A stretch of 20,164 nucleotides of DNA, taken from positions 1-20,164 of the forward strand of contig NW_013546133.1 of assembly GCF_000760515.2 (NCBI RefSeq), in the 5' to 3' direction. Below are positions 1 through 18,746 of the stretch, in pieces. How positions within the stretch are numbered: the stretch's first letter is position 1; the number at the start of each line of letters is the position of its first letter. Source of the DNA: Mitosporidium daphniae (lineage: Eukaryota > Microsporidia). The translations under genes and the position numbers were made by a program. Below the pieces are notes generated by a model. The model saw nothing but the letters and a program-made list of their open reading frames with translations. It had not been told where the DNA came from and made no database searches.

Positions 1-903
1 GAGAAAGTCATCGACTCAAATAGCACAAAATCGACTCCAATAAAATTTGAACGGCAAAATCGAATCTCTTCATTGATTTTGTGATGGAGCCAACTAATGA
101 AGGACGTCAGGTCAAGCTCGGTTTTTTTCTCGGAAACAAGGCTCGAATATATGGCTCTCAAATAGTTAAAAAGATCTTGCTGGAGCAATCTATGATAAAC
201 AGGCTCGGAGAATTTTGTAATCGAGTCGCTGACTTTCTCTAAAGCTCAGAAGAAAACCATACTTATGGATGATGTGAATATTTTTAGAAACCCAAGATCA
301 GAGGTTGAGGTTTTGCAGGAAATTATTTCCAGCACATTTTCAAGCAAAACATCGTGGAGAGGAATGAGGATCGTTTCATACCATGCTATCATGTTTAGCT
401 AAAAATAAACGTTCTATGTTACTTCTTCAATTGGATAGACCGGGTCATTGTACTTTTCTGTCCGCTTAAAGGGAATCCAGTACCGATCCAAATAGGAAAG
501 AATGAACGATGATTTTTCAGAAAAGTCTTCGAAAATATTCCAGTACTTGCAGTACACCTCGAGCGACAGATTGGTATTTAATTCTCGCTTAAATGTGGTT
601 GCCAAAAAGTCTGATAGGGCGGTTTCAAGCCATTTTTGATAGGCCTGATATATATCTTGGCCCAATATGATCGCTAGAAATAAAAAGGAAAAGCCAACCT
701 GACGCTTGTGAAGATGGATTAGAAACAAAAGAATTGCTAACACCGGTGCAGTAATTAAAAACAAGGCTACAGTCAAAATTAGAAGGTTACGAATATAAAT
801 CAAAAAGTATCTGAAAGTCAGGAGGCGCAGTACCGTCACAATGGACAAACAAAGAGTTGAAGTAGGGCATCAAATGTTGCCATACATCGTTAAATTGACT
901 CAT
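1..903 (-). CDS. Cullin, CUL1/Cdc53-like, N-terminal part (runs off the window start)
   Basis: Scaffold of an SCF-type cullin-RING ubiquitin ligase; the N-terminal helices present here are the part that binds the Skp1/F-box adaptor. I join exons 903-791, 766-699, 673-423, 398-263 and 238-<1 through introns of 24, 25, 24 and 24 nt (767-790, 674-698, 399-422, 239-262), all GT...TAG and all phase-consistent. The spliced protein, about 268 aa in the window, starts MSQFNDVWQHLMPYF. It then shows LYSLVFNYCTG (CUL1 has LYTHVYNYCTS), LGQDIYQAYQKWL (CUL1 VGLELYKRLKEFL), ILSYLDRYWIP (CUL1 AYLNRHWV), a W..TILIPL block, and a cullin-repeat segment FSEPVYHRLLQQDLFNYL. The start is the ATG at 903-901, 30 nt downstream of tRNA-Lys. 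The C-terminal cullin-homology and neddylation domains lie outside the window, so the choice of CUL1 over other cullins rests on the N-terminus only. No transmembrane segment exists once introns are removed. Confidence 0.88.
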
Positions 904-917
904 GATGCGAATTAAAT

Positions 918-931
918 AAAAAAACAAAAAA
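918..931 (-). terminator. Pol III terminator of tRNA-Lys
   Basis: The minus strand reads T6 (931-926), G (925), T7 (924-918), starting three bases after the tRNA 3' end. Runs of four or more T are the standard Pol III stop signal. The T-tract lies only 15 nt before the cullin ATG, so it takes up about half of the space available for an mRNA leader. Confidence 0.85.
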
Positions 932-933
932 GT

Positions 934-1006
934 CGCCCGAAGAGGGTCTCGAACCCTCGGCCTTAAGGTTAAAAGCCTCACGCTCTACCGACTGAGCTAT
1001 CCGGGC
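934..1006 (-). tRNA. tRNA-Lys(UUU), intronless
   Basis: A 73-nt cloverleaf reads on the minus strand. The 7-bp acceptor stem is GCCCGGA with TTCGGGC (one G-U). The D arm is GCTC/GAGC around AGTCGGTA. The anticodon stem TGAGG/CCTTA holds loop CTTTTAA, giving anticodon TTT. The T arm is GAGGG/CCCTC with loop TTCGAGA, and the discriminator is G. A-box- and B-box-like internal promoter sequences are present. No intron and no encoded CCA. A T6 run follows within three bases of the 3' end. Confidence 0.98.
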
Positions 1007-1313
1007 TGAGTAATGCACCTAGCTTGTTATATAAGTTCTTTTAAAAATAACATTTGATAATCAACCCATATGGCTCTTATTTCTGATAACGCCATTTTAC
1101 TGAATTTTCTGGTGATAAAAAGGCATTTCAAATGTTGAATATTTTCCCTACGTTTCCATTTCTGAAATTGATACCAACATTATAAGAGCCGGTACGCGCT
1201 TAAGCGGCGCTGCTTTAAATAAATTATTTCGTTGTACTCTTGTAACTGGTTTTTAATTTTAAAGCCTAGCACTACAATCATCCCATCAATTGATTTTTAT
1301 CATTTTTTCAAAT
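1007..1313. other. Intergenic region between tRNA-Lys and p24 gene; no gene seen
   Basis: 307 bp, AT-rich, separating the divergent tRNA-Lys and p24 genes, so it should hold the p24 promoter. I see no convincing ORF. A perfect 9-bp inverted repeat, GGCTCTTAT at 1072-1080 and ATAAGAGCC at 1182-1190, encloses about 100 bp; see the findings. A snoRNA-like reading of this stretch was considered and not accepted. Confidence 0.5.
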
Positions 1314-2031
1314 ATGCTCCTGTTATATTTGGCCATTTGCTGCGGCCTTTTTGTCAATTCTTGCCGGGGAATACATTTTTACCTCGAGCCAAATCAGAAA
1401 AGGTGTTTCATTGAGCATCTTCCTCGCCATACGGTATTTTTAGGTTAAGTAGCCTTCCTTACATATTAATTTAGGTGTTTATTCAACCCAAGTTTACAAT
1501 CCCTACACGAACAAATACACAGACGATCCATTATCCAGTGTAAGCATTATTGTCGATAGCGAAAGGGAAAATCTGCTCAAGCAAACGGGCTCCTCAAGCG
1601 ATCGTTTCTTTTTTACATCTGGGGAACACTCTGAACATATTATCTGTCTTTCCTCCAATAATCCTACCTTGGGATCGCAAAATGGTTGGTGGAGCCAGGG
1701 ATCATCAGGCAGCTCCAACATGCAGGGCTCAATTAAAATGACATTTGAGGTGTTTATTGGCGATCCAGGAGAGCCTTCTATTGTCTCCCCAATTGAAGCA
1801 AAGGTTGCCGGTCTCGCGCAAACAGTTTCTCAGCTGAATACTCTTGTCTCTGAAATAAGAAGGGAACAGTATTTACATAGAGAAAGAGAAGCTGAATTCA
1901 GATCGCTCTCAGAATATGTAAACGGACAGGTTGTATGGTGGACAATTGCCCAAATCTTGGTGCTTACTGGCGTTGCATCCTGGCAGGTTAAGAGATTGGG
2001 AAGGACATTGCGCACCAAGAGATTGATATGA
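1314..2031 (+). CDS. p24/TMED (EMP24/GP25L) family cargo receptor
   Basis: Type I membrane receptor of COPII/COPI vesicles cycling between ER and Golgi. Exons 1314-1443 and 1475-2031 are joined in phase 1 over a 31-nt intron (1444-1474, GTTAAG...TTTAG), giving 228 aa. The order is: signal peptide MLLLYLAICCGLFVNSC; GOLD-domain opening FYLEPNQKRCFIEHL with its first Cys, the second being in EHIICLSS; a Gly/Ser-rich insertion around residues 105-118; a coiled-coil segment SQLNTLVSEIRREQYLHRER; and the family signature SEYVNGQVVWW leading into one transmembrane helix. The tail ends TKRLI, a dibasic -3/-4 COPI-type signal, but lacks the usual paired aromatics. Only the 31-nt splice joins the Cys-bearing N-terminus to the rest, which supports it. 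The p24 subfamily (alpha, beta, gamma or delta) cannot be assigned. Confidence 0.92.
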
Positions 2032-2104
2032 GGTCTTAAATAAATTTGAAGAAAGCTAGCAAATTGGGTTGGATTTGGTTGAATCCCTACGCTAGCCGTA
2101 AGAG

Positions 2105-2362
2105 TTAGTGCAAACGTAGACGAGCCACTTGATGTAAGGGGCCTCCCAGGAGCGCAAGACTAATCTTGAAATTTAATATTAAATCTGGAACCGTGCATGT
2201 AGACAAGTAGTACACCTTTTTCTCATAAGTAGCCGCTGTTTTTAGCCGCAAGGCAGGCTTTCTGGTTGCAATGAATGTTATTTTAAGCAACACATAGGAG
2301 TCTTTCCAAGAGAACCTTGGTTTGCCTTTCTCAAATAAGTGTTCCTTGACCTCGAAAACCAT
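2105..2362 (-). CDS. Small protein of 85 aa, possibly SRP9/SRP21-like
   Basis: Uninterrupted reading frame with its ATG at 2362-2360 directly preceded by an in-frame TGA, so the start is fixed unless the 5' end is spliced. It lies 73 bp from the end of the convergent p24 gene. The segment SYVLLKITFIATRKPALRLK followed by KKVYYLST recalls the beta-strand pattern of the SRP9/21 fold (human SRP9 has RVVLKYRHSDGNLCVKV at a similar place), and the size fits SRP9 (86 aa). The similarity is by eye only and weak. If correct, the product would pair with SRP14 in the Alu domain of the signal recognition particle. No intron was needed. Confidence 0.35.
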   Translation of the reverse strand: MVFEVKEHLFEKGKPRFSWKDSYVLLKITFIATRKPALRLKTAATYEKKVYYLSTCTVPDLILNFKISLALLGGPLHQVARLRLH

Positions 2363-2444
2363 TCAATTAGATGCTTCGAAAGTCCCTTCAACAGCAAGGA
2401 TAACCTTATGTACATCAAATCAGACTAAATAATAAGAAACCTAC

Positions 2445-2476
2445 TGTCGGGAAGTCTAACACAAGGCTTCCCGACA
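2445..2476. repeat. Perfect 10-bp stem-loop between two minus-strand genes
   Basis: TGTCGGGAAG (2445-2454) and CTTCCCGACA (2467-2476) form a perfect inverted repeat around a 12-nt loop. It lies in the 190-bp gap downstream of the 2553-3038 gene and upstream of the 85-aa gene. It could be a 3'-UTR hairpin of the former or a leader or regulatory site of the latter. The rest of the gap is AT-rich and shows nothing else. Confidence 0.6.
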
Positions 2477-2552
2477 ATATAAAATCCGGACTGAGAAAAT
2501 TCATATTATTAAAAGTAACTTCAAGGCCCTTAGAATAGACAAGCTAGAGCTT

Positions 2553-3038
2553 TCAGGGTTCATCTGGTGCTTTGATGACAAAGATATTTGCGAGCGCCCG
2601 GTTGCCATTATAAATGTGCTCCGAATGCAAGTGTTTCGCAGATGCAAGAAAATCTGTAAATGCCTCAATCAATTCTGGGCTTTTTCTGAGCTCGTAAGCC
2701 CTTCTAATAAAGGAATTTACGGAGTCTGAAAGATCGGTGTGTTTGGTCAAAAGTGCAAGGGGTTTGCTTGAAAGGCTTCCAAAAAAGTCTACTTGTGCAC
2801 TAATGAGAATATCTTTTTGATAGATAAAATAGTTGATCCGATACCTATTGAAATAGCTCGAGATTCCAGCTTTATCAAAAAGAACGCAAATTTTATTGTA
2901 ACTTGTTTTTATTAGAGGCTCAGTTGTGGCATTTGGAGACAATTGAAAACTCGGATGGTTTGAAGTGGTAACTGCCGCATGAAAATGGCTTTCCGCATCA
3001 TTAGTATTCTTGGGGGTTCTATTATGTGCAATATTCAC
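2553..3038 (-). CDS. Unrecognised protein, about 160 aa, 5' end unresolved
   Basis: Open frame with protein-like composition. The part after about residue 45 looks folded: alternating hydrophobic stretches such as NKICVLFDKAGISSYF and RYRINYFIYQKDILIS, then likely helices SFIRRAYELRKSPELIEAFT. The first 45 residues are polar and low in order. The frame contains no ATG at all; upstream it is closed by TGA eleven bases before the GTG at 3038. A short 5' exon is therefore likely. A possible acceptor ending CATAATAG lies at the start of the frame (last base about 3022), but I found no matching donor with an ATG exon. I do not recognise the family. The neighbour is the divergently transcribed heme lyase. 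Confidence 0.6.
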   Translation of the reverse strand: MNIAHNRTPKNTNDAESHFHAAVTTSNHPSFQLSPNATTEPLIKTSYNKICVLFDKAGISSYFNRYRINYFIYQKDILISAQVDFFGSLSSKPLALLTKHTDLSDSVNSFIRRAYELRKSPELIEAFTDFLASAKHLHSEHIYNGNRALANIFVIKAPDEP

Positions 3039-3412: not shown

Positions 3413-4087
3413 ATGGAAGCTTCAGAAGCCTGTTCATCGCATTCCTCTTCTTTGGATGCACACAATGAATGTCCATACCGGGAAAAAAAGTCAAATATTA
3501 ATCCGTGCACATTGATGCCACATCCCGAAATCTTGAACGCAACTTCAATTGACGGGATTTCATCTCCGCTCTCAAAAGGCCTATCCACAGAGAGGGAATC
3601 AAGCACGATCCCCAAAGTAACTGCACCTGGACATGTTGATGAAACATGGAAGTATCCATCTCCCCGAATGTTTTATCATGCTCTTTTAAGGAAAGGCTAC
3701 GCCACAGATCCACAAGATATTGACAGCATGTTATTTATTCACAATCAATTAAACGAGGGGGTCTGGAAACACATTTTGGAGTGGGAAAACTTTATGCAAC
3801 CCAACGCTACTGGCAGATGCCAACCGCTGCTAAAAAGCTTTCAAGGGCGGCCTCAAAAGCTGTCTCCAAAGGCCTGGTTTGCCCACAAATTCCTAGGCGC
3901 CGATAAGCCGTTTGATAGACACGATTGGGTGATTGAGCGCTGCGGAAAAAAAGTTAGATATGTTATTGACTACTACGAAAACGGAGTTGACCAATCCGGC
4001 TCTCCAACTATGAATGTATGTGTTAGGCCTGCATTAGACAGCATTGAATCAATTTTCTATCGCTTCCGTCGATTTCTTGACAGCTAA
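3413..4087 (+). CDS. Holocytochrome c synthase (cytochrome c heme lyase)
   Basis: Attaches heme covalently to apocytochrome c in the mitochondrial intermembrane space. The start is the first ATG in the frame, giving 224 aa against about 269 in yeast and human. The N-terminus carries a CP heme-regulatory-type motif (ECPYREKK) and an IPK motif. Conserved blocks follow in order: WKYPSPRMFYHALLRKG (yeast WEYPSPQQMYNAMVRKG); IHNQLNEGVWKHILEWE, including the His-Asn pair that contains the heme-ligating His; LSPKAWFAH; PFDRHDW; VRYVIDYYENG; and CVRPALDS near the C-terminus. No intron. Its presence implies a c-type cytochrome and hence a respiratory chain in this organism. Confidence 0.96.
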   Translation: MEASEACSSHSSSLDAHNECPYREKKSNINPCTLMPHPEILNATSIDGISSPLSKGLSTERESSTIPKVTAPGHVDETWKYPSPRMFYHALLRKGYATDPQDIDSMLFIHNQLNEGVWKHILEWENFMQPNATGRCQPLLKSFQGRPQKLSPKAWFAHKFLGADKPFDRHDWVIERCGKKVRYVIDYYENGVDQSGSPTMNVCVRPALDSIESIFYRFRRFLDS

Positions 4088-4097
4088 CAGACAACTG

Positions 4098-4170
4098 AAT
4101 GGCGATGGACGTGGAAATGGGGATCCAGGTGGCGATGGCGATCACGGTGGAAATGGAGATGGATATTTGT
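4098..4170 (+). repeat. Degenerate GGNGAT/GGNAAT-like low-complexity tract
   Basis: About 70 bases after the heme lyase stop consist of imperfect hexamer-like units (TGGCGATGGACGTGGAAATG and variants) with strong purine bias. The 144-bp gap to IleRS otherwise holds AAATTT-rich sequence at 4170-4205, which presumably contains the IleRS promoter. Confidence 0.75.
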
Positions 4171-4231
4171 TAATTTAAATTTTGAGTAAATTTACAAACT
4201 AAATTTGCGTGTGAGCGCCTAGTAATTCATA

Positions 4232-7200
4232 ATGCTTCAAGAAGCAGATCCTCAATGTTCTGCTAGTGGCTCCACATCTACCGATCGGTGTGACTTTTCT
4301 TCGGAGGAAGAAAAAATACTCCAATTCTGGGACTCCATTGATGCCTTTAATCTTTCAAAAGAACTATCTAAAGATAGGCCTCTTTGGACGTTTTATGACG
4401 GACCTCCATTTGCTACCGGTCTTCCTCACTATGGACACATACTTGCTGGAACCATTAAGGATGTCGTTTGTAGATATGCATATCAGAACGGATACAAGGT
4501 ACCCCGTCGGTTTGGATGGGACTGCCACGGTCTTCCTGTGGAGCACGAAATTGACAAGAAATTAAACATTACCTGCAAGGCCGATATTGAGAAGCTTGGT
4601 GGAATTGCCATCTATAACCAGGCCTGTCGAGAGATTGTCACCCGTTACACTTCAGAGTGGGAAAGCACCGTGCGCCGTACCGGTCGTTGGATTGATTTCA
4701 AAAATGACTATAAGACCATGTATCCTTCGTTCATGGAGAGTGTTTGGTGGGTGTTCAAATCTCTGTGGAATAAAGATCTGGTTTATCAGGGACACAAGGT
4801 TTGTTTCGACTTTTATTGTAGGTGTTGCCATACTCCACTGCCTGCACTTCGCCCCTGTCAAATTTCGAGGCCAACTTGAATTACAAGGACATTGTCGATC
4901 CCACTGTCATTGTGTCTCTTCCGCTTGTCGACCGCCCGGAAACAAGTCTTTTGGTATGGACCACCACTCCATGGACGTTACCTTCTAACTTGGCGGTTAT
5001 TGCCAATCCAGATCTTCTCTACGTCGAGGTCCTGGATACAGAGACATCAAAAAAGTTTATTCTTGCAGATGCTCTGTTAAGCTCCATTTACAAAGATGTA
5101 TCTGATACTTCCGAATCGTTCAAAAGAATTTCATCGTTCAAGGGATGCGAGCTGAAGGGATTGTCCTATCAGCAGCCGTTTCCGATATTCGAATCGCGAA
5201 GAGCCTCCCACGGAAACTTTGTTGTCATTACGGATCCGTTCGTAACTGCAGATGCTGGAACTGGTCTTGTACATTGCGCCCCTGCCTTTGGGGAGGACGA
5301 TCATCGGGTATCGCTGGCCAATAAGATCATCTCAGAGAACGAGGCTGTCCCATCTACCATTGATGAAAAGGGCCATTTTGAAGCAGGCTTTTTCGAGGGA
5401 ACTTCAATTCCAGGCTCGTATTTCAAAGATGCTGATAAGGAAATTATCAAGCTGCTCAAAGCCAAAGACCGCATAGTACGCCAAACTCAACACAAGCACT
5501 CGTATCCATTTTGTTGGCGCTCAGACACACCTTTGATGTTCAAAGCGGTACCCTCTTGGTTCATACGGGTTACCGATCACATTCCCAAACTTTTGGAAAA
5601 CCAAGCCAAGACTCGATGGGTTCCCGCAAATGTTGGGGAGAAAAAGTTCACCCATTGGCTGGCTGCCGCTCACGACTGGGCTGTATCGCGAAATCGATAC
5701 TGGGGCACCCCTATTCCGGTTTGGCGCTCTGCTGATGGAAAGGAAACCATTGTTATTGGAAGCATCGAAGAGTTAGCTCGCCTTGCCGGTATCCGAAGCG
5801 ATTCGATCACAGATCTACACCGTGAAAGCATTGATCACATCGAAATTCCCTCCCAAATCGATCCAAACGGACGCCCTCCATTAAGAAGAGTTGAAGAGGT
5901 CTTTGATTGCTGGTTTGAATCTGGCTCAGTTCCCTATGCCGCACAACATTATCCTTTCAGCGAAGTTTCAAATGCTGGTACGCCGGAACAACCACCGGGA
6001 ACGTTCGCCTCATCATTTCCTGCTGATTTTATTGCCGAGGGGATTGACCAGACTCGCGGATGGTTCTATACCCTTTCTGTATTAAGCACACTTTTGCTTG
6101 ATAGACCCCCATTTCGAAATGTCATTGTTAATGGCCTGATTTTAGCGGCTGATGGGAAAAAAATGTCAAAGCGATTGAAAAACTATCCAGAGCCCGAGGT
6201 GGTGATGGGGAAATTTGGTGCTGATGCGCTAAGACTTTATCTCATCAACTCCCCCGTTGTNTGTGCAGAGTTTCTAAAGTTCAAAGAGGAAGGTGTACGT
6301 GGAATTTTGAGGGATGTTTTGATCCCCTGGACCAATACATCTCGGTTCTTTACAGAGCAGGCCTCCCTGATAAGCGCAACGTTTGCGCGCCCCATTGTTG
6401 GCCAGTTTGTCGGCAATGCGGATGAATTTGTAGGGCAGTCTTCAAGTCTTTTTTCGGATGATATCATGGATCGTTGGATCCTTTCACTCTTACAAACGCT
6501 GATTGAAGAGGTGCGTCAAGAAATGGATGCTTACCATTTGTATTCCGTGGTCCCAAAGCTGCTAACCTTTCTTTCCTCGCTGTCTAGTTGGTATTTACGT
6601 CTTTCGCGCAAGCGTGCAAAGAACGATGAAGACAAAGAGGACCAGCTCAAGGCTCTTGGCACGCTGTTCCATGTGCTCTATTCTTTGACCATTATCATGG
6701 CACCATTCACGCCTTTTGTTGCTGAAAGTCTCTTTCAAGAGCTCTCCGGGTTTATTTCAAATGAAAAGGAGAAAAAAACATCGCCCCCGCTGCTTTCTGT
6801 CCATTTCCAGCCTTTTCCATGCGTAAATACTCTCTTGAAAGACAAATTGACAGAGGAGAGGTTTTCACTTTTCCAAGAGGCCATGGATCAAGCTAGAGCC
6901 ATTAGGGAGCAAAAGAATATTTCGCTCAAAATCCCCCTTTCTTCAATGATCATCGTTACAAACTCCCACGAGCAGCAATCACTATTGTTGCCTCTGGTTT
7001 CTTACATTTCCGTGGACTTGAATGTCCGCGATGTCCGCATTCTGGTGGACACGGATGTTGAACATCTGGGTATCAAAATTGCCTACAAGGCGCTCCCAAA
7101 TTTTTCTCTGCTTGGCCGGCGTTTGAAGACCGAGCTAGATGCGCTCCAAAAGGCTCTTAGGGAAGAAGTATGCGATTCCCATCTTCGTGCATATTTCTTG

Positions 7201-7644
7201 GACAAGTCAAAAGGGCTATGTGTTGGCAATAGATGGATCTTGTCCGAAGACGAGGTTTCGATTTCCCGCTCTGTCCTTGCTCTTCCGGAGCAATGGGAGC
7301 AGCAGAAAAACGCCTCTGCCAACCGCCAGGTCATCACACTGCTTTGCACAGAGCTTTCTGAAGATCTTCTTCAAGAAGGTGCCGCAAGAGAAATACTTTC
7401 GCGTATTCAGCAGCTCCGTAAAAAGGCTGGACTAAAACAGAGCGACACGGTCTCCATTTACCACGATGATTTGGCATCTGGGTCGATTTTTGTCAGCCAG
7501 GCTGCATACTTTGAGCGGTCTCTGAAGAATACGATTTTGATACCAAAGCAAACAGAGACCAATTCCCTTGAGCATGCTCTCGTCGATGAGATCATGATCT
7601 CAGATCGCCTTATCAAACTGACGCTCTCCAGCCAGTTTGAGTAG
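4232..7644 (+). CDS. Isoleucyl-tRNA synthetase, cytosolic
   Basis: Charges tRNA-Ile with isoleucine. Exons 4232-4798 and 4822-7644 join over a 23-nt intron (4799-4821, GTTTGT...TGTAG, phase 0), giving 1129 aa, close to yeast (1072). The splice restores the conserved [20 protein letters not shown]. Class I features: HIGH-type motif HYGH at residues 66-69, [15 protein letters not shown]1 editing-domain region with [10 protein letters not shown] and [25 protein letters not shown], and KMSKR at residues 636-640. The anticodon-binding domain and a eukaryotic C-terminal extension follow. The base at 6261 is n; the codon is GTN, so it is Val whatever the base. The next codon gives Cys where most IleRS have Arg or Lys (SPVV[R/K]AE), possibly a base-call error beside the n. 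Confidence 0.97.
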
Positions 7645-7785: not shown

Positions 7786-9208
7786 TCAAGGCAGGCGCAA
7801 AACTCGCAGTTTCCCCTTTTCCGACTTGTTTGGAAAGGAAAGGCCGGGTGGCGGTCCATTAGGAGTAGAAACTGCCGGTGCGGTATTTTCCCGCTTTGGA
7901 AGTTCGGGAAAGGCCTCTGCGCGCGACTCTTGTCTTTTCAAGCTTTGGCTGGCTGGCAAGCTTGAGGGTTTTGACAACGGCACCTTTTCCGGAAAGGATA
8001 TTTTCGGTGCAGATGCTGAAACAGATGGGGGGCCCATAGCCGATGGCCTCAAAGACGAGAGAGAGGGAAACAATTTTTCTTTCGAATGTAGCACTGCCGG
8101 CTTCCTTTTCGAAATTAAAGGCATAGACGAATTGATGGGGGCAAGCGATGGAAAAGAGTCTTCAGATAGCACAAATGGCGTAGAAATGTCTTTCCTGGTC
8201 TCCCTGCTCGGTTCCTGTGTTGAAGAAGCTGGCGAATCCTTTTTAGACAAATCGATTGAGAGTATATGTCGATTCTGGGATCTTTGACCGCCCCTATAAA
8301 GCTCTGGATGCTGGTTGGCCATGTGGCCCTTCAGATCAATCACAGTCGAAAAGACAACAAATTTTTTTTCAAGGCAAGGCTTTTCATTGCACATAAAATG
8401 GGAATCGTGGAAATGTTGCTCCTAAGAAAACGTAAAAATTTCCGCACTTACCAGCGATTCATAATTCTTGTAATACTGGTCCTTGATCTCATTTGAAATA
8501 CATATGAAGCACGATTCGTGTGCATCCCTACAATGGGTGTAAAGCTCATCGTTAGAGTAAAAGCGCACACTGCAAAACTTGCATTCGGGATGCCCTATTA
8601 GCTTTTTCTGGATTTGCACGATTGGAGAAGTTTGGGGAATGTTGTCTTTCCGCCTTTTCTTTTCCTCAATTGTTCTCATGTGCGAACGCAATGTGAACGG
8701 ATTTTCAAATAGGGGGATCTCCTCAAAAAATAATTTCTGGTTATCAAAGCAGATGGTACAAATGAACTTTCCATGAACCCGCTCCAAGTGTACAGGAAAG
8801 TCGGTTCTTTTTGTCAAAGCCACGTTGCAAGAAAAAATGGGACATCGTGGGTTTATCAACTCCTCACACGTCCGCCTAACCCTTTCCGTTTCGAAATAAA
8901 TCTTGTATTGATTTTCCGGATCAAAAGAGATATAGTTCGAAGCACTTTCGGGGATTGAGACCAACTTTAAAAGAAAGTTTGGAATTGTCTCCTGTTCAAC
9001 ATGGCTTTCAAAAATCAAAACATTATTTGAGGACCTCTAAGCTTGATAAATCAAATTGAAGCCTAACTTTACAGAGCGGGCAAGCCATTATTTGAAAGAG
9101 GACTCTCAACCTAAGAGAGCATCTATAGCATATCAGATGCGAGCAAATTCCGATTGCCCAGGCCTTTACATTGACCTCCACGCAAATCTCGCAATTGGAA
9201 ATTTTCAT
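7786..9208 (-). CDS. Hel2/ZNF598-type E3 ubiquitin ligase of ribosome quality control
   Basis: RING E3 that senses collided ribosomes and ubiquitinates small-subunit proteins. Exons 9208-9068, 9036-8452 and 8421-7786 join over introns of 31 nt (9037-9067) and 30 nt (8422-8451, GTAAGT...TTAG), both phase 0, giving 453 aa, shorter than yeast Hel2 (639) or human ZNF598 (904). The RING is complete: C6, C9, C22, H24, C27, C30, C43 and C46, with the family spacing CEIC...WAIG.CSH..CYRC..R.RVL. C2H2-type fingers follow, then HPECKFCSVRFYSNDELYTH, QYYKNYESLEQHFHDSHFMC (across the splice) and the signature QNRHI. The disordered tail repeats FPSL/FPEL motifs and GPPPGL, as in the family. The ATG is 15 nt from tRNA-Pro on the same strand. 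The 3' end converges on IleRS with 141 bp between. Confidence 0.95.
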
Positions 9209-9210
9209 TT

Positions 9211-9223: not shown

Positions 9224-9295
9224 GGGGTCAGCCGAGAATCGAACTCGGGACCTCTCGCACCCTAAGCGAGAATTATACCACTAAACCACTGACCC
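9224..9295 (-). tRNA. tRNA-Pro(AGG), intronless
   Basis: A 72-nt cloverleaf on the minus strand. Acceptor GGGTCAG/CTGACCC, anticodon stem CTCGC/GCGAG with loop TTAGGGT (anticodon AGG), T arm CCGAG/CTCGG with loop TTCGATT, discriminator C. The anticodon arm and variable region resemble eukaryotic tRNA-Pro(AGG). Confidence 0.98.
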
Positions 9296-9393: not shown

Positions 9394-11137
9394 TTATAAT
9401 TTATTTTGCATTTCCACATATTCAAAAAGCAAGTCCAAATGCTCACTAATACCCAGTTTATAAGGCGAATATTTGTCGAGAATTTCTCGCTTGACAAGCT
9501 CTTTGGCTCCGCTATGTCTTATCAAGAGGCGTCTAATCTCTTTCTCGCTTGGAAGAGTGTAATGGGGCAAAAAAGAATGGTACTGACTGTGATCCTCTAC
9601 GATCTCTCCAGCAAGCATTTTGTGGTCGCGCAGAAATTCATTTAGATCGTCAGAATCGTTCACAATTGGCCATTCTGGGGTCCTTTTGAGCTTATCGATC
9701 AGCTTAGCTTTGGTGCCAAACTCAAACGTAGCTCCAGAAAGGAAGTATCTTGTGGCTGCCAATTCCATTGTCAAGCATTTGGCCAGCGATGCTAATTGAC
9801 CTCCAACTCGAAGCAATTTTACCGTCTTTCTCAGCGAATTTGGACACATCGTTTGAAGTTTTGTGAGGATTTTTTCGGAATACACAGCAGAGGGTCCCTT
9901 TGCTTCCTGAGAAATCCTCTTTAGCTTGCAGGCTATGTCTTCATAGCAATCGCTCTTGTTGAATCTGCGAATAAAAGCTAACAAACATACACATAATCGA
10001 CAAACCGTCTTGAGGGAAGGTTTGAGTCTATAGAGTTATCCGAAATTTTAAATGTCGTCTCGGGCAAGTAGGAGCCCGAAAACTCGTTTAGAATCAAATT
10101 GAAGTTGGGGTCTGAACCGTCCAGCCCAGAAAGCCTAGCAATTAGGTCTTCTATCCGGTGATGAGGAATATAATGAGTAGCCAATCCGCAATGACTAACA
10201 ACGGGGTTAACAAAACGCGATTACTAAATTTGCTGGCCATGAAGACGTTCGCCGGTGAGACCCAAGAAAACACCAAGGCCGCAATCTAATTTTGGAAGGA
10301 AGTTGGTTGCTCCAACGTCTGGGTAAAATCCGATCGCAGTCTCTGGCATTGCAAACACAGATCTTTCCGTGGAAACACAAAAAGGCGCATTAATGGAAAG
10401 ACCGGCACCGCCGCCAAGAGTCAATCCATCGATTATGCTGAGAACAGGGGCTATTTTGGGGCCGGTTAGCGAAATCAAGTGGTTCAATCGATATTCCTGT
10501 TGAAAAAACTTCATGGCCTCATCAACACCATGCTTTTTGCGTGTTTTGAGGACATCTAAAGTGTACATCAAATGGGATACCAATGACATCGCCGCCGGCG
10601 CAAAAGACGGGAGAGGCCTCATTCACCGCCCGGGCCTTGATGACAATAACCCGACATGAGGGTCTATCTCGAAGGATCTAGGAAAGTAGGTGCAGACGTT
10701 ACTTGGATATACGTTGTGATCTGCTGAATCATTTGCATTGTCAAGGAGTTCAATTTTGATGGACGGTCCAGCTCGATGATTCCTACGCTCCCCGAAATGC
10801 GCATATGGATATTTTCGCATTTGATTGCCTCCCCAGCAAGAGGCGAAATTGTATCTGAAATCTTTGAAAAGTCTCTTGATGCAAATGTACGATCCATCGA
10901 TTTGGAGGGTTTAGCTTGAGATAGGCTGGTTAAATCCGTAAAATAGTCGACCGCTTGTTTGAGTTCAACGATTGATGGATACGGATTTTGAAGGTCGTTA
11001 AATTTGCTGCGTTTGTAGTATTTTAAGAACGAGAGCGGCTTCCGATGAGTAGAGAGCGCCCTGCTATAAATTCCGAGCACCATAAAAGTTGACCCAAACT
11101 GCAACAATGCAACTCCATTATGCCTGCCACAGAACAT
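9394..11137 (-). CDS. Ehd3/HIBCH family: 3-hydroxyisobutyryl-CoA hydrolase or mitoribosomal mS47 homologue
   Basis: Enoyl-CoA hydratase/isomerase fold protein of the HIBCH branch (valine breakdown); in yeasts the orthologue Ehd3 is also the mitoribosomal protein mS47. Exons 11137-10703, 10677-10581, 10555-10225, 10194-9991 and 9964-9394 join over introns of 25, 25, 30 and 26 nt (10678-10702, 10556-10580, 10195-10224, 9965-9990), giving 545 aa. Spliced motifs in order: IKCENIHMRISGSVGIIELD, FCAGGDV (visible only after splicing), FFQQEYRLNHLI, IDGLTLGGGAGLS, AMPETAIGFYPDVGATNFL, CGLATHYIP and MSP-like MCPNSLRKT. The Glu and Asp of MPETAIGFYPDVG, catalytic in HIBCH, are kept. The N-terminus (MFCGRHNGVALLQ...) is basic and looks like a presequence. 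A C-terminal extension of about 70 aa exceeds HIBCH (386 aa) and is nearer Ehd3 (500 aa). The ATG is directly preceded by a TTAGGG repeat. Confidence 0.92.
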
Positions 11138-11151
11138 AACCCTAACCCTAC
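11138..11151 (-). promoter_or_regulatory. Double TTAGGG motif abutting the Ehd3/HIBCH start codon
   Basis: The minus strand reads GTAGGGTTAGGGTT immediately before the ATG at 11137, within the 41-bp gap to Hop1. TTAGGG/CCCTAA boxes bind Tbf1/Rap1-type Myb factors in fungal promoters. Whether the motif is functional here is inference. Confidence 0.4.
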
Positions 11152-11178
11152 ACAAGCCAACAAATCATTGCAAATTTA

Positions 11179-12979
11179 TTAATTTTTCAAAAAGCACTTT
11201 ATAGGGTTTTCTGTAGAGCTGGATTGCTTTTTCTTTTTCAACAATGGCTCAATAGACCGGCTTTTGCTAGAAGCGACATCTTTTCGGCAACTTTCATCTT
11301 TGCTGCAAATATCATGTCTGCTGAAACTATCAACGTTGCTGCAGCCATCGGAAGCGAAATGATTTTCCTCAAATAACGAATGCTTCAAGCTTGATATCGG
11401 GGCCGGGCTTGGGACAGGCTTACCGAGAGCTTTATGATACTCTGGAAATGTTGCTAGGTCTACGCTAAAGTAGTATTTGATTTTTTTCTTGATCTCATTG
11501 CTCTTAATACATTCATACGAAAACCTGGTTATCGCTCCATTTGAAGGAACCTTGAGCAAAAATCCTTCGTTCGCCAATTTCTTTAAAATATGAGAAGATT
11601 TCTGGAAAGTAGTTCCAAGTCTTGTTGCCAAGTCCATGTGATCAGTTATGGACAGGTTGAAGGAAATAAACAACGCTCTTCTGACAAGCGATAAATCGGA
11701 ACAGAATTTCAGCACCTTTGGTCGTTTTTTATGCTGGCAATTATAACAAGTATGAGTGGACCCTTCATGGCTTGGGATCCTCTTATCAGAGTTGCTATAA
11801 TATCCACAGCAGACCGTATGTTGCCAAGTATTGCAACTGTCACAGAATATCATGGCAACATCGGGCTCTTCATAATCGGATGCACCACACGGACAACGTA
11901 TAGAGTCACACGATGGCCTCGATGAAAAAACGGCCTCAGTCGGGGGTTTTATGTCGGGGGCGAATGGATCACAGGCTGGGTATCCATAATGGTAGAGCGG
12001 TCCATTTGGGGCGAAATCGTTTCGATTGGAGAGCATACCAAATTGTTAAAATCCAAATCATCGGCTTTCACAGGCCACTCCTTGCAAGGGGCGTGCGGAA
12101 GATTGCTTTGTGATGACGATATGGGGCATGCCCCAGCTTGAAACGACTCTTTTGTGTTTTTGCTGCCATGCTCGTCGTTGGGTAGCAAATCGGACTTTGT
12201 TTGAATTTTAAGAGATATTCTAACGTAGGTAACTAATACATCGGCAACACATACGTATGGAATGGGGTCGCTGCTTGCCCAAGATCAAATCTCAGAGAAT
12301 CTGCGCCACGGGAATTGACAAAAATCTCATCTGGGCAATCAAGAAACAACGGCGGTTGGTATGAGGATGGCGTCCGATCCTCGTAGTAATATATTCGGAT
12401 GGTTAAATATTTGATTGCGGGCAAGGACTAGAACAGAAACAAATCATTACCTTTAGCGTTTGGGTCAATATGCACATGGTCCTTAAAATCTGCACGGCAG
12501 AGCGCTTAAAGTCGATCTCCTTCTGGCTAAAGTGCAAAATTTCCTTGTCATTTTGTTCGATCGATAGAGATGATATGTCGGCACCAACATGGTCACTGTT
12601 GAATGGTGCATAGGCGACCTTGAAAGTATACCATTCAAGAACATTTTTCGGGTCATCCGGATCGATGAAAATGCCAAGGTATATTGTACGCAGGTATTTT
12701 TTATCCAAGGCGTCATAAATGCCAAGCTCAATCCAATCGAGAAAAGTATCTGCTTCTGGCGACATTCCACGGGCAAGTCTTTTCAGCGCCAGGTCGCACA
12801 AAAAGTGATCGGTAAAATTTTTCTCTTCAAACAAATCCCTCAAGTACCCAATGCAGGAAAACGACGTGGATATCAAATGTTTCATCAGAGCTAGGCTTTG
12901 GCCTTCGCTTTGGATGATATCAACCTTTTCATTAACCTAAGATGGTAACATCGCAACAACGGCATACCCTTAGCGCCAT
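11179..12979 (-). CDS. Hop1-type meiotic HORMA-domain protein with PHD and winged-helix modules
   Basis: Meiotic chromosome-axis protein promoting interhomologue recombination. Exons 12979-12968, 12936-12451, 12427-12255, 12219-11973 and 11934-11179 give 557 aa (yeast Hop1 605) over introns of 31, 23, 35 and 38 nt (12937-12967, 12428-12450, 12220-12254, 11935-11972). Exon 1 is a 12-nt microexon (MALR). HORMA domain, about residues 5-225: EGQSLALMKHLISTSFSCI, GYLRDLF, FLDWIELGIYDALDKKYLR, IFIDPDDPKNVLEWYTFK, KYLTIRIYYYEDRTPSSYQP and, after splicing, TPFHTISLKI (HORMAD1 TPFHTLKVRV). A disordered linker leads to a PHD finger (C320, C322, C337, C340, H345, C348, C368, C371) and a winged-helix segment near 380-470. 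The last intron is the weakest call: it ends GAG and is the longest; a 104-nt alternative uses the donor at about 12038. Confidence 0.88.
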
Positions 12980-13140: not shown

Positions 13141-13144
13141 TAAA

Positions 13145-14873
13145 TTAGTTCCTCTCAAATAAAAGCAATAATTCGTAATGATCTGTCTGGGGAAATAAAT
13201 CGACCGGGATTGCCCTTTTTATGCAAAATGGACCACCTGGGTATCTCTTGGAGGTTGATCGACAAAGACTAGTCAAATGATGAACGGTTTTCAGCTTACT
13301 CCTCAAAATTAACAGCGGCCAAATCGGCCTTACAAGATATGTAAATGACCTTTTTGATCAGGGGATTGCTTCGCAGAGAATGAATGACCTCCTTTTTGAC
13401 CCCATTTCTGGGAGGATCCAGGATAACAACGAACTCATCAGACTTTGAATGCGAAGACAAAACCTTTGGAAGAATCGTTTCAACGGGTCCAGCGATCCAC
13501 TCCGACTTTTCTGAAATGCCTAGGAAAATGAGAAATAAAATACCATTTATCGCTGCATTTCTTTTTGCGTCCTCGATGGCCTCAGCAATCAGTTCAATCC
13601 CTACAACATGATCAGCAAAGCTTGAAAGAATAATTCCAATGGTTCCAGAGCCGCAGCAAAGATCAAGAAGTATCCTATTTTTTTGAACGCTACTTGTGGC
13701 ATCGCTACCGTCTGCAATAAAAGACCCGGCAAGCGTAAACAGCTTTTCAGAGGCATATACGTTGGCTTGGAAAAAAGCTTCAATTGAAACCTCAAACTTA
13801 AAATCAAGAATGGTCATTGGAAGCGATTTGGGACCATATATGCTCACTAGGGGCTTCGAAAAATCGAAATTCAAGCTGAGACTTGAGCTTTCTTGATAAG
13901 ACAAAGAAGCAACACTAACATTCTTATTATCCTGGCCCTCCCAACTGAAAGATCTGCAAAACTCCTCCAGTCCTTTAAGAGGATAATTTGCATCGCTGGA
14001 AAGTTTTGTAACCGAGATCAGGGCCATCACTAAAAATTACGCCAAAAGATAACCCAAACATTTTCCGTCATCCATTAATCTCAGCAACAGAAGCCTCCAA
14101 AACCCACAATGAGTAATTCTATTATAAACTGCAAATAACGCATCCACTGGCGTGATTCTATCTTGTTGGTAATGTGCGGAAATAAGCCACTCGTTGAAGG
14201 CCGCTACGAAGGCCTTCATTCCGGGATGGACAATCAGGATTGGGTCTGGCGAACATACAGACAAGTTTTCCTCCATATAAGAGCCCATTGTAAATCCCAC
14301 GATCGGGTCTTTCCCGGATTCACCCCCAAATCCGATAGTAAATTCACATTTGTTTCTATATCCAGTAAGGACGGGGGACGCAACAACATATTCAATAACA
14401 TGGCTATAGTTAATCCGAGATAGAGCGGATGATGCCATTTTCTTTTTCAACTCCAGTTGTTCCGAATATGGATATCGCCAGAACTTTGTTACCTGATCTT
14501 GGATCCGTTCGCTTTCTGGAAGGGAGCTGTTCTTTTTGGATATCGAATAAAAGGCGTCCGACTCGACGTTCAGCTTTCGTTTGGTGAGTGAGTTAATCGA
14601 AAGTGGTTTCTTGCATTTTGGATACAAAATCTTTTTGTTTGAAATGAAATCTTGAAAATCGCTGAGACTCCCCTGGCTAGGGAAGATCATGATACAAGTG
14701 TCTTTTTTCGGGTCCTTTTGCACCTTATACTCATGCTGGAACTCCTTGAGGAGATCCTGTAATTTTGGCGTCAATTCTTTCGCAGTTAGGTATCGCGGGA
14801 CATTCTGAAGACATAATTTACATTCTTCTTTTGAGGGTTCTGCAACGATTTCCAAGCCAGCATTTTCTTCCAT
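13145..14873 (-). CDS. tRNA (uracil-5-)-methyltransferase Trm2/TRMT2A
   Basis: SAM-dependent enzyme making m5U54 (ribothymidine) in the tRNA T loop. Exons 14873-14060, 14029-13544, 13519-13300 and 13268-13145 give 547 aa (human TRMT2A 625, yeast Trm2 639). Introns are 30 nt (14030-14059), 24 nt (13520-13543) and 31 nt (13269-13299). An RRM-like N-terminus contains LCLQNVPRYLTAKEL. Then come WRYPYSEQLELKK, VLTGYRNKCEFTIGF, THCGFWR, SAM motif LLDLCCGSGTIGI, IELIAEAIEDAKRNAAINGI, VILDPPRNG, and YISCKAD with the nucleophilic Cys. The last exon supplies CRSTSKRYPGG and FPQTDHYELL with the catalytic Glu. The 24-nt intron is in frame and stop-free: unspliced it adds eight hydrophobic residues that the family lacks. 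The gene is head-to-head with glutathione synthetase. Confidence 0.95.
13520..13543 (-). other. Cryptic 24-nt in-frame intron within the Trm2 gene
   Basis: On the minus strand, GTATTT...CCTAG begins after the first base of a codon and removal leaves AAT GGC ATT. The result, NAAINGISEKSEWIAGPVE, follows the family pattern of helix, short turn, then strand. Retention would insert ILFLIFLG-like residues into the methyltransferase core without a stop or frameshift. Pyrimidine content and the TAG end match the other introns in the window. Confidence 0.85.
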
Positions 14874-14967: not shown

Positions 14968-16535
14968 ATGAACTTTTTATCCTCCGCTAATAAATTCAAC
15001 TTTCTTTTTCTCGATCGCTCATATAATGCTAAGCCTTGCGCGATGACTAAACATCCATCTCCCTTCCCAAGATCCCAATATTTATTAGCCCTGAAACTAC
15101 AAACTTATTGGGATCGGCTATTCCAGTTTTTACTGTCCGAGCCTATTTATTCATCATATTTCTTGGATGCCCTAATGATAAGGTTTTTATAGCTTCATAA
15201 CTTTAGTATAACGCCTGGAGATGCCTTTATGAGCAGGCTCTACGAAATCGAAAAAGCACATAGGTTGCACCGCCAAAATGTTTTCATCATCTCCCTGTTA
15301 ATGATGTCTTTTAGATTCCAGTCCTTGCCGTGACAAGGACAGACTATTTGCTGGGTGGAGAGTCTGCTCCACAGCTGAAGACCGTTGAATTTAATACCAT
15401 TGCAACCGGGATGGGTTTGTTAACCGATTCGCTTTGGTCTATGAGGGAATTTTTATATGGGGCTGATGGAGCAGGTGAAAGGCCCAACTGTGGTCATTTG
15501 TATATTGAGTCTTTTTGCGATGCCTTTAATCTTTGGAATGAGCTTAACAGCGAAAACTCGGCCTTTCCCCCCATTTTCGCTATGATCGTTTTGCCAAATG
15601 AAAGAAATATTTTTGAGCACCAGGAAATATGTGAGCGACTTTTGAAAAAGGGCATCCAAACTCATAGGATAACGCTCTCCGAATTGGGAACATCGGGATC
15701 CTTGACCAAAGATCGATATTTAATTTACAAAGGGTGTGGTTTTCCTTGTCGTGACTTTGTAGGTCTTGCATAGCCGTTGCCTATTTTAGAACCGGCTATG
15801 CGCCAAGCAATTTCAATTCTGTAGATGTATTAATCAGCGCCTAAACGTAGGACTGGAATGGCCGCGATCTCATCGAGGCGTCCAACTGCATCGAATGTCC
15901 CTCCTTGGCCTTGCAGTTTATAGGTTCAAAAAAGGTGCAACAAATGATCGCCGAAGATTCCTTCCCATTGGATTGGTAACTGGATTTGGGTAAACAACCA
16001 TATAGGATTGTTGGCGATTCCTCTCATTTGCTTGCCTCCACATTTGTGCAGTTTTTTTCTCTAGATTCGGAAGTACGGAGGTGTGCGGCTGTTGAGTTTA
16101 TGGAGAAAACCCCAAAAGCCGAGTTTGTACTAAAACCACAAAGGGAAGGCGGAGGTATTTCGATTTTTTCTGATCTCAAGGCAATAATATTTTCTTTCGA
16201 GATGAGATTATGAAAATCATCTCGACAAATCAGGCTGCCGATCTCGCCCAATATATTCTTATGGAAAGGATCATACCTCCCCCAAAAGCCCGATTTCAAG
16301 CCACACTTATTTCAGAAGGGATCACTGAGGACGAAGAGCTGTGCACATCTGAGCTTGGAATATTTTCCTCCTTCATAAGGTTAGCATTTCTCAATAACCC
16401 GATAGCCATGCTGGCCACATGAGCAAGGAAAGAATTGGCGGATATATCTTGAGAACCAAATCACTCTCCGTAGATGAAGGCGGGGTTTCGGCTGGGTTTG
16501 CATTTCTTGACACTCTTGACCTTTGCGATCCCTAA
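14968..16535 (+). CDS. Glutathione synthetase (eukaryotic type)
   Basis: Joins gamma-glutamylcysteine and glycine, the second step of glutathione synthesis, in the cytosol. Eight exons: 14968-15182, 15207-15279, 15315-15733, 15763-15820, 15851-15975, 16006-16154, 16181-16379 and 16406-16535, with seven introns of 24, 35, 29, 30, 30, 26 and 26 nt. The product is 455 aa (human GSS 474). Human order is followed throughout: PSPFPRSQYLLALKLQ, DAFMSRLYEIEK, TRTDYLL, LKTVEFNTIATGMG, ERNIFEHQEI, GSCIAVAYFRTGYAPS (across a splice), SNCIECPSLALQFIGSKKVQ, FVLKPQREGGGNNIF (across a splice; ATP-grasp core), AQYILMERI, TSELGIF and GGYILRTKS...DEGGVSAGFAFLD. The N-terminus is about 20 aa shorter than usual. 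The first in-frame ATG was used; the next Met is directly before TKHPSPFPR. Confidence 0.95.
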
Positions 16536-16626
16536 TTGATGTGATTGATGAAAAGCGGCCTTGCGTTTAATAAATTCATACTTGTGGAAAGTTTGCTTTT
16601 CAGTAAAATTTAGACCCTCCAGCCGG

Positions 16627-18746
16627 ATGATTGCAGAGGCGGAAAATTCGACCGGGTTACCGACTCAATTTGCGGTAAAGAAAACCTATGGGCGCAAAAA
16701 AAGACGGCCAGCTGCGCTTCCATCGAAAATAGAAAAAAGAAGAGAATCAAATGCTAGCCTCTCATCTTTCTTTCCGCATCAGACAACCAATTGCCACTTG
16801 AACGTCCATTTTTCGCCTTTCAAAAGTCTGCAGAAGTACCTTCGTGCTGGAATATCCGCTGCTGAAATGGCCTCTCAGAATGTATTTGACCTGGTACCGA
16901 CTACCTCCCCCGTTCAAATAAATGCTCTTAGTAGGCCATCACGAGCGACCACTTCTAAAGGTCAAGCAAAGAGAAAAGTTGTTACTCAGCTGGCGAAGGC
17001 CATTTCAGGGGAACCCAATTCGCCAGCTGTTGTTTCGTTAGAGCCTTGTCCTCAAAACCGCAGTGCCAAAAAGCTCTCGATATCCGAACCCTTATTAAAG
17101 GGCCAACAAGCTTTCTCCCCCGAACATGCTATTGAGTTATCTCCTTCTGCTAATTTTTTGAAGGAAAATTTTTGTCTGAGTAATTCGATGGAAGAGAATC
17201 CATTTCTGGAATCAACATTTTTGTCGAATGCGAAAAGACCCGAGGCAGAGCCAGTGCTGAAGAGATATCCCGAGGCAGAGCCAGTGCTGAAGAGATATCC
17301 CGATGCTACGAAAGCTACGACAAAAGACATTTCAAACCTTTCACCTCCAAAAGAGATATCCAATGTTTTTAGCCCCGAAGTGTCGACGAAGCCGATGTGT
17401 TTGAACGAACCACCTCTATTGTCTACGCTTTTGTTGAATGCATGCGACCAAGAGCATGTTTTGGATTTTAACTTTTTTATGGAAGAATTCAAGTACTTTG
17501 CTTTTTTAATGGGTTAGGGAACACTACCTAATTGAAAAGGTCGGAGAGTCCTCATACTCCGAAGTCTTCAAATGTACATCCATTGAACGGGTAGATGGTG
17601 GGTCTCAGATGGCTCTAAAAATAATCCCCCTCAACTTGCAAATAACTAATCATGATAATGCTGAAGAACCTGACCACAATTCTGGTGAGAAGATCCCATA
17701 CCGAAGCAGACCGCGCGACGTCCTCCATGAGCTGCTTATCACGCAAGCTTTATCCCCGCCAGATATACTTCCCCCAATCTGGAATGGATTCATTCGCTTG
17801 TATGGCGCAGCCTTGGTTTCTGGGGCATATCCGTCCATTTTAATGCGGTCGTGGCATGATTACGAGTCTAAATTCGGCTCTGAAAATCTTCCCCCCTCGC
17901 TCCTGGATCAGTTTATGGATGACCAGCACTATATGATCTTGCTTTTGGAATATGGGGGCGTCGATTTAGACCATTTCCCTCTGACAACACTTCCTCAATT
18001 GAAAAGCCTTTTTTCGCAATTGGTGCTTGCTCTTTATGTGGCGCAAAAGGTTTCCATTACAACTCTAACATGGCGGTAGGATTATGCGTTTGAGCATCGA
18101 GATCTTCATTTGGGCAATATTTTAATACAATCCTGCGACGACCCACATCATCACAACGATGGCAGCAAACGTGATGCGGTGGTTTGTCAAAAAGTACCCA
18201 TGTTCATTCCTGTGCCTTCCGAATTCAGTGGGGTATTACCAGAAAATTTTGCATCCAGCGGGATTCAGGCCACAATAATCGATTATTCGCTTTCACGCCT
18301 GCAACCAAGTGCCTTTTGTTTCAGCTTAATTTAGATAAAAATGAAGGAATCCTATATGCCGATCTGGAACTTGACCCGAGCATCTTCGCAGGCGATGGTA
18401 GTCGACGAATTTGCCTAAATCCCTAGATCGTGTAGACATCCAATATGGAGTATATCGAGCCATGCGATCTATTCTTGGATTTCCCAAAGCTTCGCGCCCA
18501 AATTGGGAGGGATTCTTTCCATCAACAAATCTCCTTTGGCTGAAATTTGTTTCGGACAAGCTCTCAAAAAAAATATCGGCCAAACCAAGGATCCACGGAA
18601 GAAGGGACACCAACAATATGTCCATGAAGAGACTCCTCTCGTCGATCTCCTCGCTTTGTAAACATAACATACCATCTACATCAAATTGCTCTGGACTGAC
18701 CATGGATTTTGTAGCCAGCATTTTTCATTTGATGGACAATTTTTGA
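16627..18746 (+). CDS. Haspin kinase (histone H3 Thr3 kinase)
   Basis: Mitotic kinase whose H3T3ph mark recruits the chromosomal passenger complex to centromeres. Exons 16627-17492, 17518-18049, 18080-18308, 18335-18397 and 18427-18746 join over introns of 25, 30, 26 and 29 nt, giving 669 aa. Residues 1-288 are disordered and basic, with KKTYGRKKRR near residue 20 (resembling the YGA/R Pds5-binding motif of haspin) and a tandem decapeptide at 205-224. Kinase domain: YLIEKVGESSYSEVF, ALKII (Lys 323), a haspin-specific insert ending PSILMRSWHDYE, LLLEYGGVDL, EHRDLHLGN (472-479), IIDYSLSRL (533-541, the haspin replacement of DFG), then IFAGDDRVDIQYGVYRAMR and NLLWLKFVSDKL. The Gly-rich loop reads GESSYS and lacks the second and third glycines. 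The ATG at 16627 is the first Met in frame, 91 bp after glutathione synthetase. Confidence 0.95.
17239..17298 (+). repeat. Exact 30-bp tandem duplication in the haspin N-terminal region
   Basis: Two identical 30-bp units (17239-17268, 17269-17298) encode PEAEPVLKRY twice in frame, followed by a partial third start (PDATK). Identity at every synonymous position points to a recent duplication in disordered sequence. Confidence 0.95.

Follow-up and report, generated by a model that had tools for sequence, protein, structure and literature searches.

Intron loss is classically illustrated by microsporidia, and a basal member with 0.57-2.07 introns per kb would separate the shrinkage of introns from their disappearance. 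For Encephalitozoon cuniculi, which belongs to the same phylum as Mitosporidium daphniae (NCBI taxonomy), the available text of two reports gives 37 introns of 22-76 nt, with a strict donor and a CTAAYTT branch (PMC3629993, PMC2483917). A reconstruction from 263 genomes, in the part of it available, puts intron density at 0.22 per kb of coding sequence in the microsporidian ancestor and at 2.53 in Rozella (PMC8476143). M. daphniae shares short GT-AG introns with E. cuniculi, but it has 30 of them in a 20-kb window (the whole stretch of DNA analysed, 20,164 nt), with loose signals and CTAAY in 5 of 73 introns. These introns do not form the small, strict-donor, CTAAY-branch set of the E. cuniculi type and have the narrow length range, high density and low donor information of the tiny-intron class. 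The literature naming Mitosporidium together with introns or gene prediction (leaving out Haag 2014, Whelan 2019, PMC5973626, PMC6492006, PMC8393795, PMC10716661 and PMC6699826) does not, in the portions available, go into splicing in M. daphniae except for a single gene that lacks introns (PMC6309107).

Nine genes of the window contain 30 GT...AG segments between them, 23-38 nt long with a mean of 27.8 (Table 1), a density of 2.07 per kb of coding sequence in these genes. From sequence features, they are very probably genuine U2-type spliceosomal introns that have shrunk almost as far as is physically possible while remaining common in housekeeping genes. A preliminary description had given the same count, genes and range, with a mean of 28, none above 38 nt and integral codon counts after splicing, and all of this was borne out, the longest proposed intron being 38 nt and the spliced lengths being multiples of three; the codon count of the cullin carries little weight because this gene is truncated at the window edge. 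Most of the individual lengths also stood, with three corrections: GSS intron 4 measures 24 nt and not 30 (360.1 vs 354.0 bits), HIBCH intron 4 was badly placed (522 of 1197 alternative excisions outscore the proposed one, some of them also GT..AG), and the 38-nt Hop1 segment, which sits in a linker and was passed over by the prior-guided finder, is doubtful.

Table 1. Proposed introns of the window, by gene, with the basis of each placement.
Intron	Length (nt)	Position	Strand	Basis
Cullin	24	767..790	-	prior-guided gene finder; spliced-protein Pfam match
Cullin	25	674..698	-	prior-guided gene finder; spliced-protein Pfam match
Cullin	24	399..422	-	prior-guided gene finder; spliced-protein Pfam match
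Cullin	24	239..262	-	prior-guided gene finder; spliced-protein Pfam match
p24 (EMP24/GP25L)	31	1444..1474	+	placed by eye in preliminary description; Pfam match 20-221 (spliced protein) crosses join
IleRS	23	4799..4821	+	unbeaten among 1321 excisions; 324.1 bits retained vs 1457.2 spliced
Hel2/ZNF598 intron 1	31	9037..9067	-	prior-guided finder; within RING_ZNF598 match
Hel2/ZNF598 intron 2	30	8422..8451	-	prior-guided finder; within zf-C2H2_13 match
HIBCH intron 1	25	10678..10702	-	homology scan; read through in deposited model DI09_89p60
HIBCH intron 2	25	10556..10580	-	homology scan, 1.5 bits under best excision
HIBCH intron 3	30	10195..10224	-	unbeaten among 730 excisions
HIBCH intron 4	26	9965..9990	-	prior-guided finder; boundaries not fixed by homology
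Hop1 intron 1	31	12937..12967	-	finder with and without length prior; outside HORMA match
Hop1 intron 2	23	12428..12450	-	finder with and without length prior; within HORMA match
Hop1 intron 3	35	12220..12254	-	finder with and without length prior
Hop1 intron 4, doubtful	38	11935..11972	-	placed by eye in preliminary description; between HORMA and PHD
Trm2-like (tRNA U5 methyltransferase) intron 1	30	14030..14059	-	prior-guided finder
Trm2-like intron 2, 3n and stopless	24	13520..13543	-	prior-guided finder
Trm2-like intron 3	31	13269..13299	-	placed by eye in preliminary description; tRNA_U5-meth_tr match 465-546 crosses join
GSS intron 1	24	15183..15206	+	homology scan, 1.8 bits under best excision
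GSS intron 2	35	15280..15314	+	homology scan, 3.5 bits under best excision
GSS intron 3	29	15734..15762	+	unbeaten among 1269 excisions
GSS intron 4 (30 nt in preliminary description)	24	15827..15850	+	homology scan, 360.1 bits
GSS intron 5	30	15976..16005	+	sole GT..AG among 787 excisions, 2.4 bits under best
GSS intron 6, ends AAG	26	16155..16180	+	unbeaten among 1412 excisions
GSS intron 7	26	16380..16405	+	homology scan, 0.5 bit under best excision
Haspin intron 1	25	17493..17517	+	finder with and without length prior; spliced-protein Pfam match
Haspin intron 2	30	18050..18079	+	prior-guided finder; spliced-protein Pfam match
Haspin intron 3	26	18309..18334	+	prior-guided finder; spliced-protein Pfam match
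Haspin intron 4	29	18398..18426	+	prior-guided finder; spliced-protein Pfam match

In IleRS, glutathione synthetase (GSS) and HIBCH (previously called Ehd3), which have 12 of the introns, we ran a scan with profile HMMs that used no splice letters, scoring in-frame, stop-free excisions of up to 78 nt around each proposed junction while length modulo 3 (the reading frame) and the gene's remaining introns were kept as proposed. GT..AG came out at the top of the 256 terminal dinucleotide pairs, with a total gap of 17.7 bits over the 12 introns, compared to 70.1 bits for the runner-up TT..AG and 208.4 bits for the median pair; its rank per intron was 1, 17, 35, 1, 3, 31, 1, 2, 4, 12, 1 and 102. 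By homology alone, the proposed length lay within 1 bit of the best in eight introns, and 11 of the 12 are well placed. TAG ends 10 of these 12 introns and 27 of all 30, though the prior-guided finder itself favoured T at that position. A codon-only test over 84.5 kb also put GT..AG first of 256, with a z of only about 2.7 and GC..TT a close second. Compared with single-exon pieces, the spliced proteins gained Pfam bits for the cullin (17.6 to 58.6), p24 (88.1 to 116.2), haspin (53.6 to 180.6), HIBCH (130.6 to 282.2) and GSS (28.5 to 208.4), in part simply because exons were added. When given a length prior of 22-38 nt, a gene finder recovered 26 of the 30 earlier lengths, and one with stricter penalties and no length prior gave five of the 30, plus two long alternatives in HIBCH. 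Gene finding with neither a length prior nor splice matrices joined neighbouring genes via false introns and was too weak to decide.

In a sample of 126.5 kb elsewhere in the genome, a finder with a flat length prior of 15-120 made 55 intron calls; 43 of them measure 23-36 nt and eleven measure 58-108 nt. The long calls, seven of which were not resolved into short introns when read by eye, would fit an atypical window in a genome also rich in ordinary longer introns. However, they are scattered, whereas the 43 short calls cluster, and three resolve into short introns: the calls of 58 and 97 nt, in Pfam matches, and of 98 nt, beside an AAA match, keep the frame unbroken when shortened to 25, 28 and 32 nt, and the 108-nt call resolves in part. 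We therefore regard an atypical window as improbable. Of 40 junctions in 20 of the 33 intron-bearing models, those that were scanned, 17 lie within above-cut-off Pfam matches, 15 of them with introns of 23-34 nt. Density in contigs C1-C5 is 0.57 per kb (33 introns in 84.5 kb), probably an underestimate. The preliminary description had already drawn the comparison with Paramecium and microsporidia; the organism is a basal microsporidian, and short introns dominate the calls on other contigs too.

That the frame breaks stem from errors of assembly or sequencing, or that these are pseudogenes, is less credible still. The published draft comprises 612 scaffolds and the window holds one ambiguous base, at position 6261, but errors would not favour GT..AG above 255 other pairs, nor add 23-38 nt at every break, and the segments occur in genes such as those for topoisomerase I, IleRS and a Brix-domain protein. 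Paramecium internal eliminated sequences have similar minimal lengths, but removal of the segments from the DNA in the manner of those ciliate sequences, or their bypass in translation, both without splicing, is highly unlikely given the GT..AG termini and the encoded snRNAs with intact elements, and we know of no DNA elimination in fungi.

The reading as spliceosomal, minimal and frequent introns, put forward in the preliminary description, agrees with these termini and with the splicing components encoded on the genome contigs. The U1, U2 and U6 RNAs score above the gathering threshold and have their GUAGUA, ACUUACCU and ACAGAG elements intact, and Prp8, Slu7 and Prp18 are encoded. A loss of Slu7 and Prp18, which a short branch-to-acceptor distance might have allowed, is ruled out, since both are present. 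Of the factors suggested earlier for an inventory, Prp8 is thus present; for the other two, an exon-by-exon search of 4.66 of 5.64 Mb returned U2AF_lg matches that were all below the cut-off and, with no positive control, no SF1-HH match. A long-read assembly of 2025 measures 5.83 Mb (PMC12449221). Read as gene models, the U2AF_lg match on contig C78 looks RBM39-like rather than U2AF65, and an above-cut-off KH match on contig C56 looks KHDC4-like rather than SF1. For RED and Smu1 of the human short-intron pathway (PMC6692369), the RED_N and LisH_TPL profiles gave no matches, again with no positive control.

Splice signals were examined in 73 introns, namely the 30 of the window and the 43 short ones of the sample, the latter picked with weight matrices. 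The donor carries 1.34 bits at +3..+6 (n=30) and is weak, as in Paramecium, unlike in Encephalitozoon; in the text available, dicyemids are given 0.5 bits and E. cuniculi 6.2, published values that were perhaps computed otherwise (PMC2483917). YTNAY, the strongest of nine motifs tried, occurs in 50 of the 73 introns vs 35.3 (sd 4.0) after shuffling, and there is an excess of A at the seventh and eighth base from the 3' end. No enrichment was found for YTRAY in the sample set (9/43 vs 8.8 shuffled), nor for CTAAY in all 73 (3.0 shuffled). Two of the 73 introns have no A in the usual branch zone, and the final 16 nt of Hop1 intron 2 hold a single A, that of TAG. The branch signal is weak rather than clearly absent. 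One of the 73 introns is 3n and stopless, a scarcity that carries no interpretation because the finder hardly detects such introns.

These features suggest that the whole intron may be recognised as a single unit. U1 would bind a loose GTA/GTT donor and U2 a weak YTNAY branch site, its A often the seventh or eighth base from the 3' end; the acceptor, mostly TAG, would lie directly behind the branch site, making long spacing unnecessary. A 23-nt intron would leave about 15 nt from donor to branch, so that U1 probably yields to U6 ahead of, or together with, the settling of U2.

Two genes are merged in the deposited model DI09_89p60, which also reads into the 25-nt HIBCH intron 1, and the proteins listed for the three genes searched included no intact one from M. 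daphniae. Since deposited models miss tiny introns, some published M. daphniae gene absences may be artefacts; comparisons based on these models may score present genes as lost, and reported absences such as that of the CLK kinases, as given in the available part of that paper (PMC12795684), deserve a recheck at the DNA level. In canonical microsporidia, introns may have shrunk ahead of their loss. If M. daphniae, at the root of the lineage, is still intron-rich, the massive loss would have come later than placed. We see an even chance that microsporidian shrinkage preceded loss, with M. daphniae keeping some two thousand introns or more (an extrapolation from the 33 in contigs C1-C5), nearly all near-minimal and with loose signals, the massive loss falling after the microsporidian ancestor, and part of the published gene absences being annotation artefacts. 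M. daphniae also offers a within-phylum test of the proposal, as worded in the available text, that intron number, not genome reduction, sets signal strength (PMC2483917).

For the question of how small an intron can be, a canonical spliceosome working on introns of 23 nt would be instructive. Stentor coeruleus, in the accessible part of its description, has introns of 15-16 nt and keeps the main snRNAs, as M. daphniae does, but its table gives Slu7 and Prp18, both encoded in M. daphniae, as not found (PMC9505925). Mikrocytos mackini is likewise an intracellular parasite with numerous tiny introns, and the available text reports 224 of them, of 16-17 nt, with conserved sequence and fixed length (PMC10245619), whereas those of M. 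daphniae span 23-38 nt and are loose in sequence. Also comparable are Paramecium, the Bigelowiella nucleomorph and dicyemids, for which the portion of the survey available describes very short, frequent introns with a donor of little more than GT(A) and a weak or absent branch signature (PMC2483917); M. daphniae resembles them in all of this, but they are unrelated lineages, and it differs in that YTNAY is modestly enriched towards the 3' end of its introns.

Each of the 30 segments that the preliminary description had proposed as introns in nine genes of the window is present and bounded by GT and AG; their lengths run from 23 to 38 nt, with a mean of 27.8, and 27 of them end in TAG. Given a length prior of 22-38 nt, a self-trained gene finder reproduced 26 of the 30 lengths; without the length prior, it recovered five of the 30, together with two longer alternatives in HIBCH. 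The gene finder also called an extra intron that was absent from the proposed list and lacks homology support (Table). Three introns were positioned by eye: the p24 intron and Trm2 intron 3 lie within Pfam matches of the spliced proteins, and Hop1 intron 4 lies outside them.

The placement of 12 junctions was scored, with splice letters unused, against profiles built from 87 IleRS, 116 glutathione synthetase (GSS) and 118 HIBCH homologues. Candidates were stop-free excisions of at most 78 nt that kept the proposed frame and began no more than 36 nt away from where the intron had been proposed to begin, the remaining introns of each gene being held fixed. The proposed excision was unbeaten at four junctions (IleRS 1, GSS 3, GSS 6 and HIBCH 3), lay at most 0.5 bit below the best at three more, and was within 3.5 bits of the best at 11 of the 12, in all of which it was the top GT..AG candidate. 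By homology alone, the proposed length was among the best at eight of the 12 junctions. When all 256 dinucleotide pairs were compared over the 12 breaks (excisions of at least 15 nt), the total gap was 17.7 bits for GT..AG, versus 70.1 for TT..AG and a median of 208.4; the nominal Fisher p from the ranks (5e-10) is only indicative, since the pairs are not independent. The placement proposed for HIBCH intron 4 was not supported by homology: 522 of 1197 alternatives outscored it, and the comparison of dinucleotide pairs credited this intron with another GT..AG than the proposed one.

Outside the window, a 126.5-kb sample (contigs C1-C5 and stretches from family searches) was analysed with a flat length prior of 15-120 nt and weight matrices taken from the window introns. 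This yielded 79 genes, 33 of them with introns, and 55 introns: 43 of 23-36 nt, one of 17 nt and eleven of 58-108 nt. A Pfam scan covered 20 of the 33 intron-bearing models, including thiamin pyrophosphokinase, a DEAD-box-type helicase, topoisomerase I, a Brix protein, condensin Cnd1, cullins, a protein kinase, an AAA protein and Slu7. By our own count, 17 of their 40 junctions fall within Pfam matches above the cut-off, 15 of them of 23-34 nt and two of them long calls (58 and 97 nt). Shorter introns (25, 28 and 32 nt) fit the 58-, 97- and 98-nt calls without breaking the frame, and a 108-nt call is resolvable in part; for the other seven long calls, no such reading was obtained. When the 256 pairs were compared by codon evidence alone (84.5 kb), GT..AG again ranked top, but weakly.

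The splicing machinery was searched in 4.66 Mb (147 contigs), which is roughly 83% of the genome size published (5.64 Mb). U1, U2 and U6 each gave one match above the gathering score, with canonical recognition elements, and Prp8, whose inventory had been proposed as a check, was found within a 2419-codon open frame. SF1, U2AF65, RED and Smu1 were not identified in these 4.66 Mb, the RED, Smu1 and SF1 searches having no positive control. Slu7 and Prp18 are both encoded, whereas both are listed as not found in Stentor (PMC9505925). Prp18 matches score identically on three contigs (C56, C80 and C118); two 3339-base stretches of C56 and C80 differ by one base, being either a duplicated segment or redundant contigs. 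Our best reading is that an ordinary spliceosome acts on near-minimal introns.

Signals were examined in the 30 window introns and the 43 short sample calls. Donor information at +3 to +6 amounted to 1.34 bits for the window introns and 1.66 bits for the sample introns, which had been chosen with weight matrices. Of nine motifs tried, YTNAY was the strongest: it occurs in 50 of the 73 introns versus 35.3 (sd 4.0) after shuffling, and CTAAY in just five (3.0 expected); A is over-represented at the seventh and eighth base from the 3′ end. In two introns, the sole A near the 3′ end is that of TAG (Table), and therefore either the branch would lie unusually close to the donor or the branch base would be other than A.

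Coordinates of introns, genes and repeats (window positions unless stated)
Feature	Location	Strand	Length
tRNA-Lys(ttt) gene	934-1006	-	
tRNA-Pro(agg) gene	9224-9295	-	
Extra intron call	4016-4037 (within 3413-4175)	+	22 nt
IleRS coding stretch downstream of its intron	4822-7644	+	
DI09_89p60 model	10664-11637	-	
Intron of DI09_89p60	11148-11197		
Two telomere-like CCCTAA units, between Hop1-like gene and HIBCH	~11130-11155		
A-poor 3′ end intron	12428-12450	-	23 nt
A-poor 3′ end intron	sampled stretch L024, reverse-strand offsets 1124-1149	-	25 nt
In-frame tandem repeat within haspin gene	17239-17303		30-base unit
Repeat downstream of haspin gene	18812-18882		35-base unit

Among the matches listed, no intact M. 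daphniae model is seen for any of the three genes searched (IleRS, glutathione synthetase and HIBCH), since an intact deposited protein, if within the length limits of the search, should have ranked first. No M. daphniae entry for IleRS or glutathione synthetase is named among the 120 best matches listed for each; the one identical IleRS entry among those listed is a 922-residue frame that starts downstream of the intron. For HIBCH, the sole M. daphniae entry among the matches listed is the fragment DI09_89p60 (307 aa), which fuses the 3′ part of the Hop1-like gene with the HIBCH start via a 50-nt intron, enters the 25-nt HIBCH intron 1 and meets a stop 14 nt past it. Annotation of the 2025 reassembly relied on BRAKER training together with the E. 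cuniculi model, and the word "intron" is absent from the main text of that paper (PMC12449221). An IleRS on another contig is 69% identical to that of the window, a hint of an undescribed Mitosporidium relative.

M. daphniae is placed under Microsporidia in the NCBI taxonomy. A study of 263 genomes assigns massive intron loss to the microsporidian ancestor, and Mitosporidium is unnamed in its main text (PMC8476143). Seen from M. daphniae, the data suggest that introns shrank first and were lost later, an order that we infer. According to PMC2483917, weak signals together with many tiny introns are the pattern of Paramecium, the Bigelowiella nucleomorph and dicyemids, and the opposite of that of the intron-poor E. 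cuniculi.
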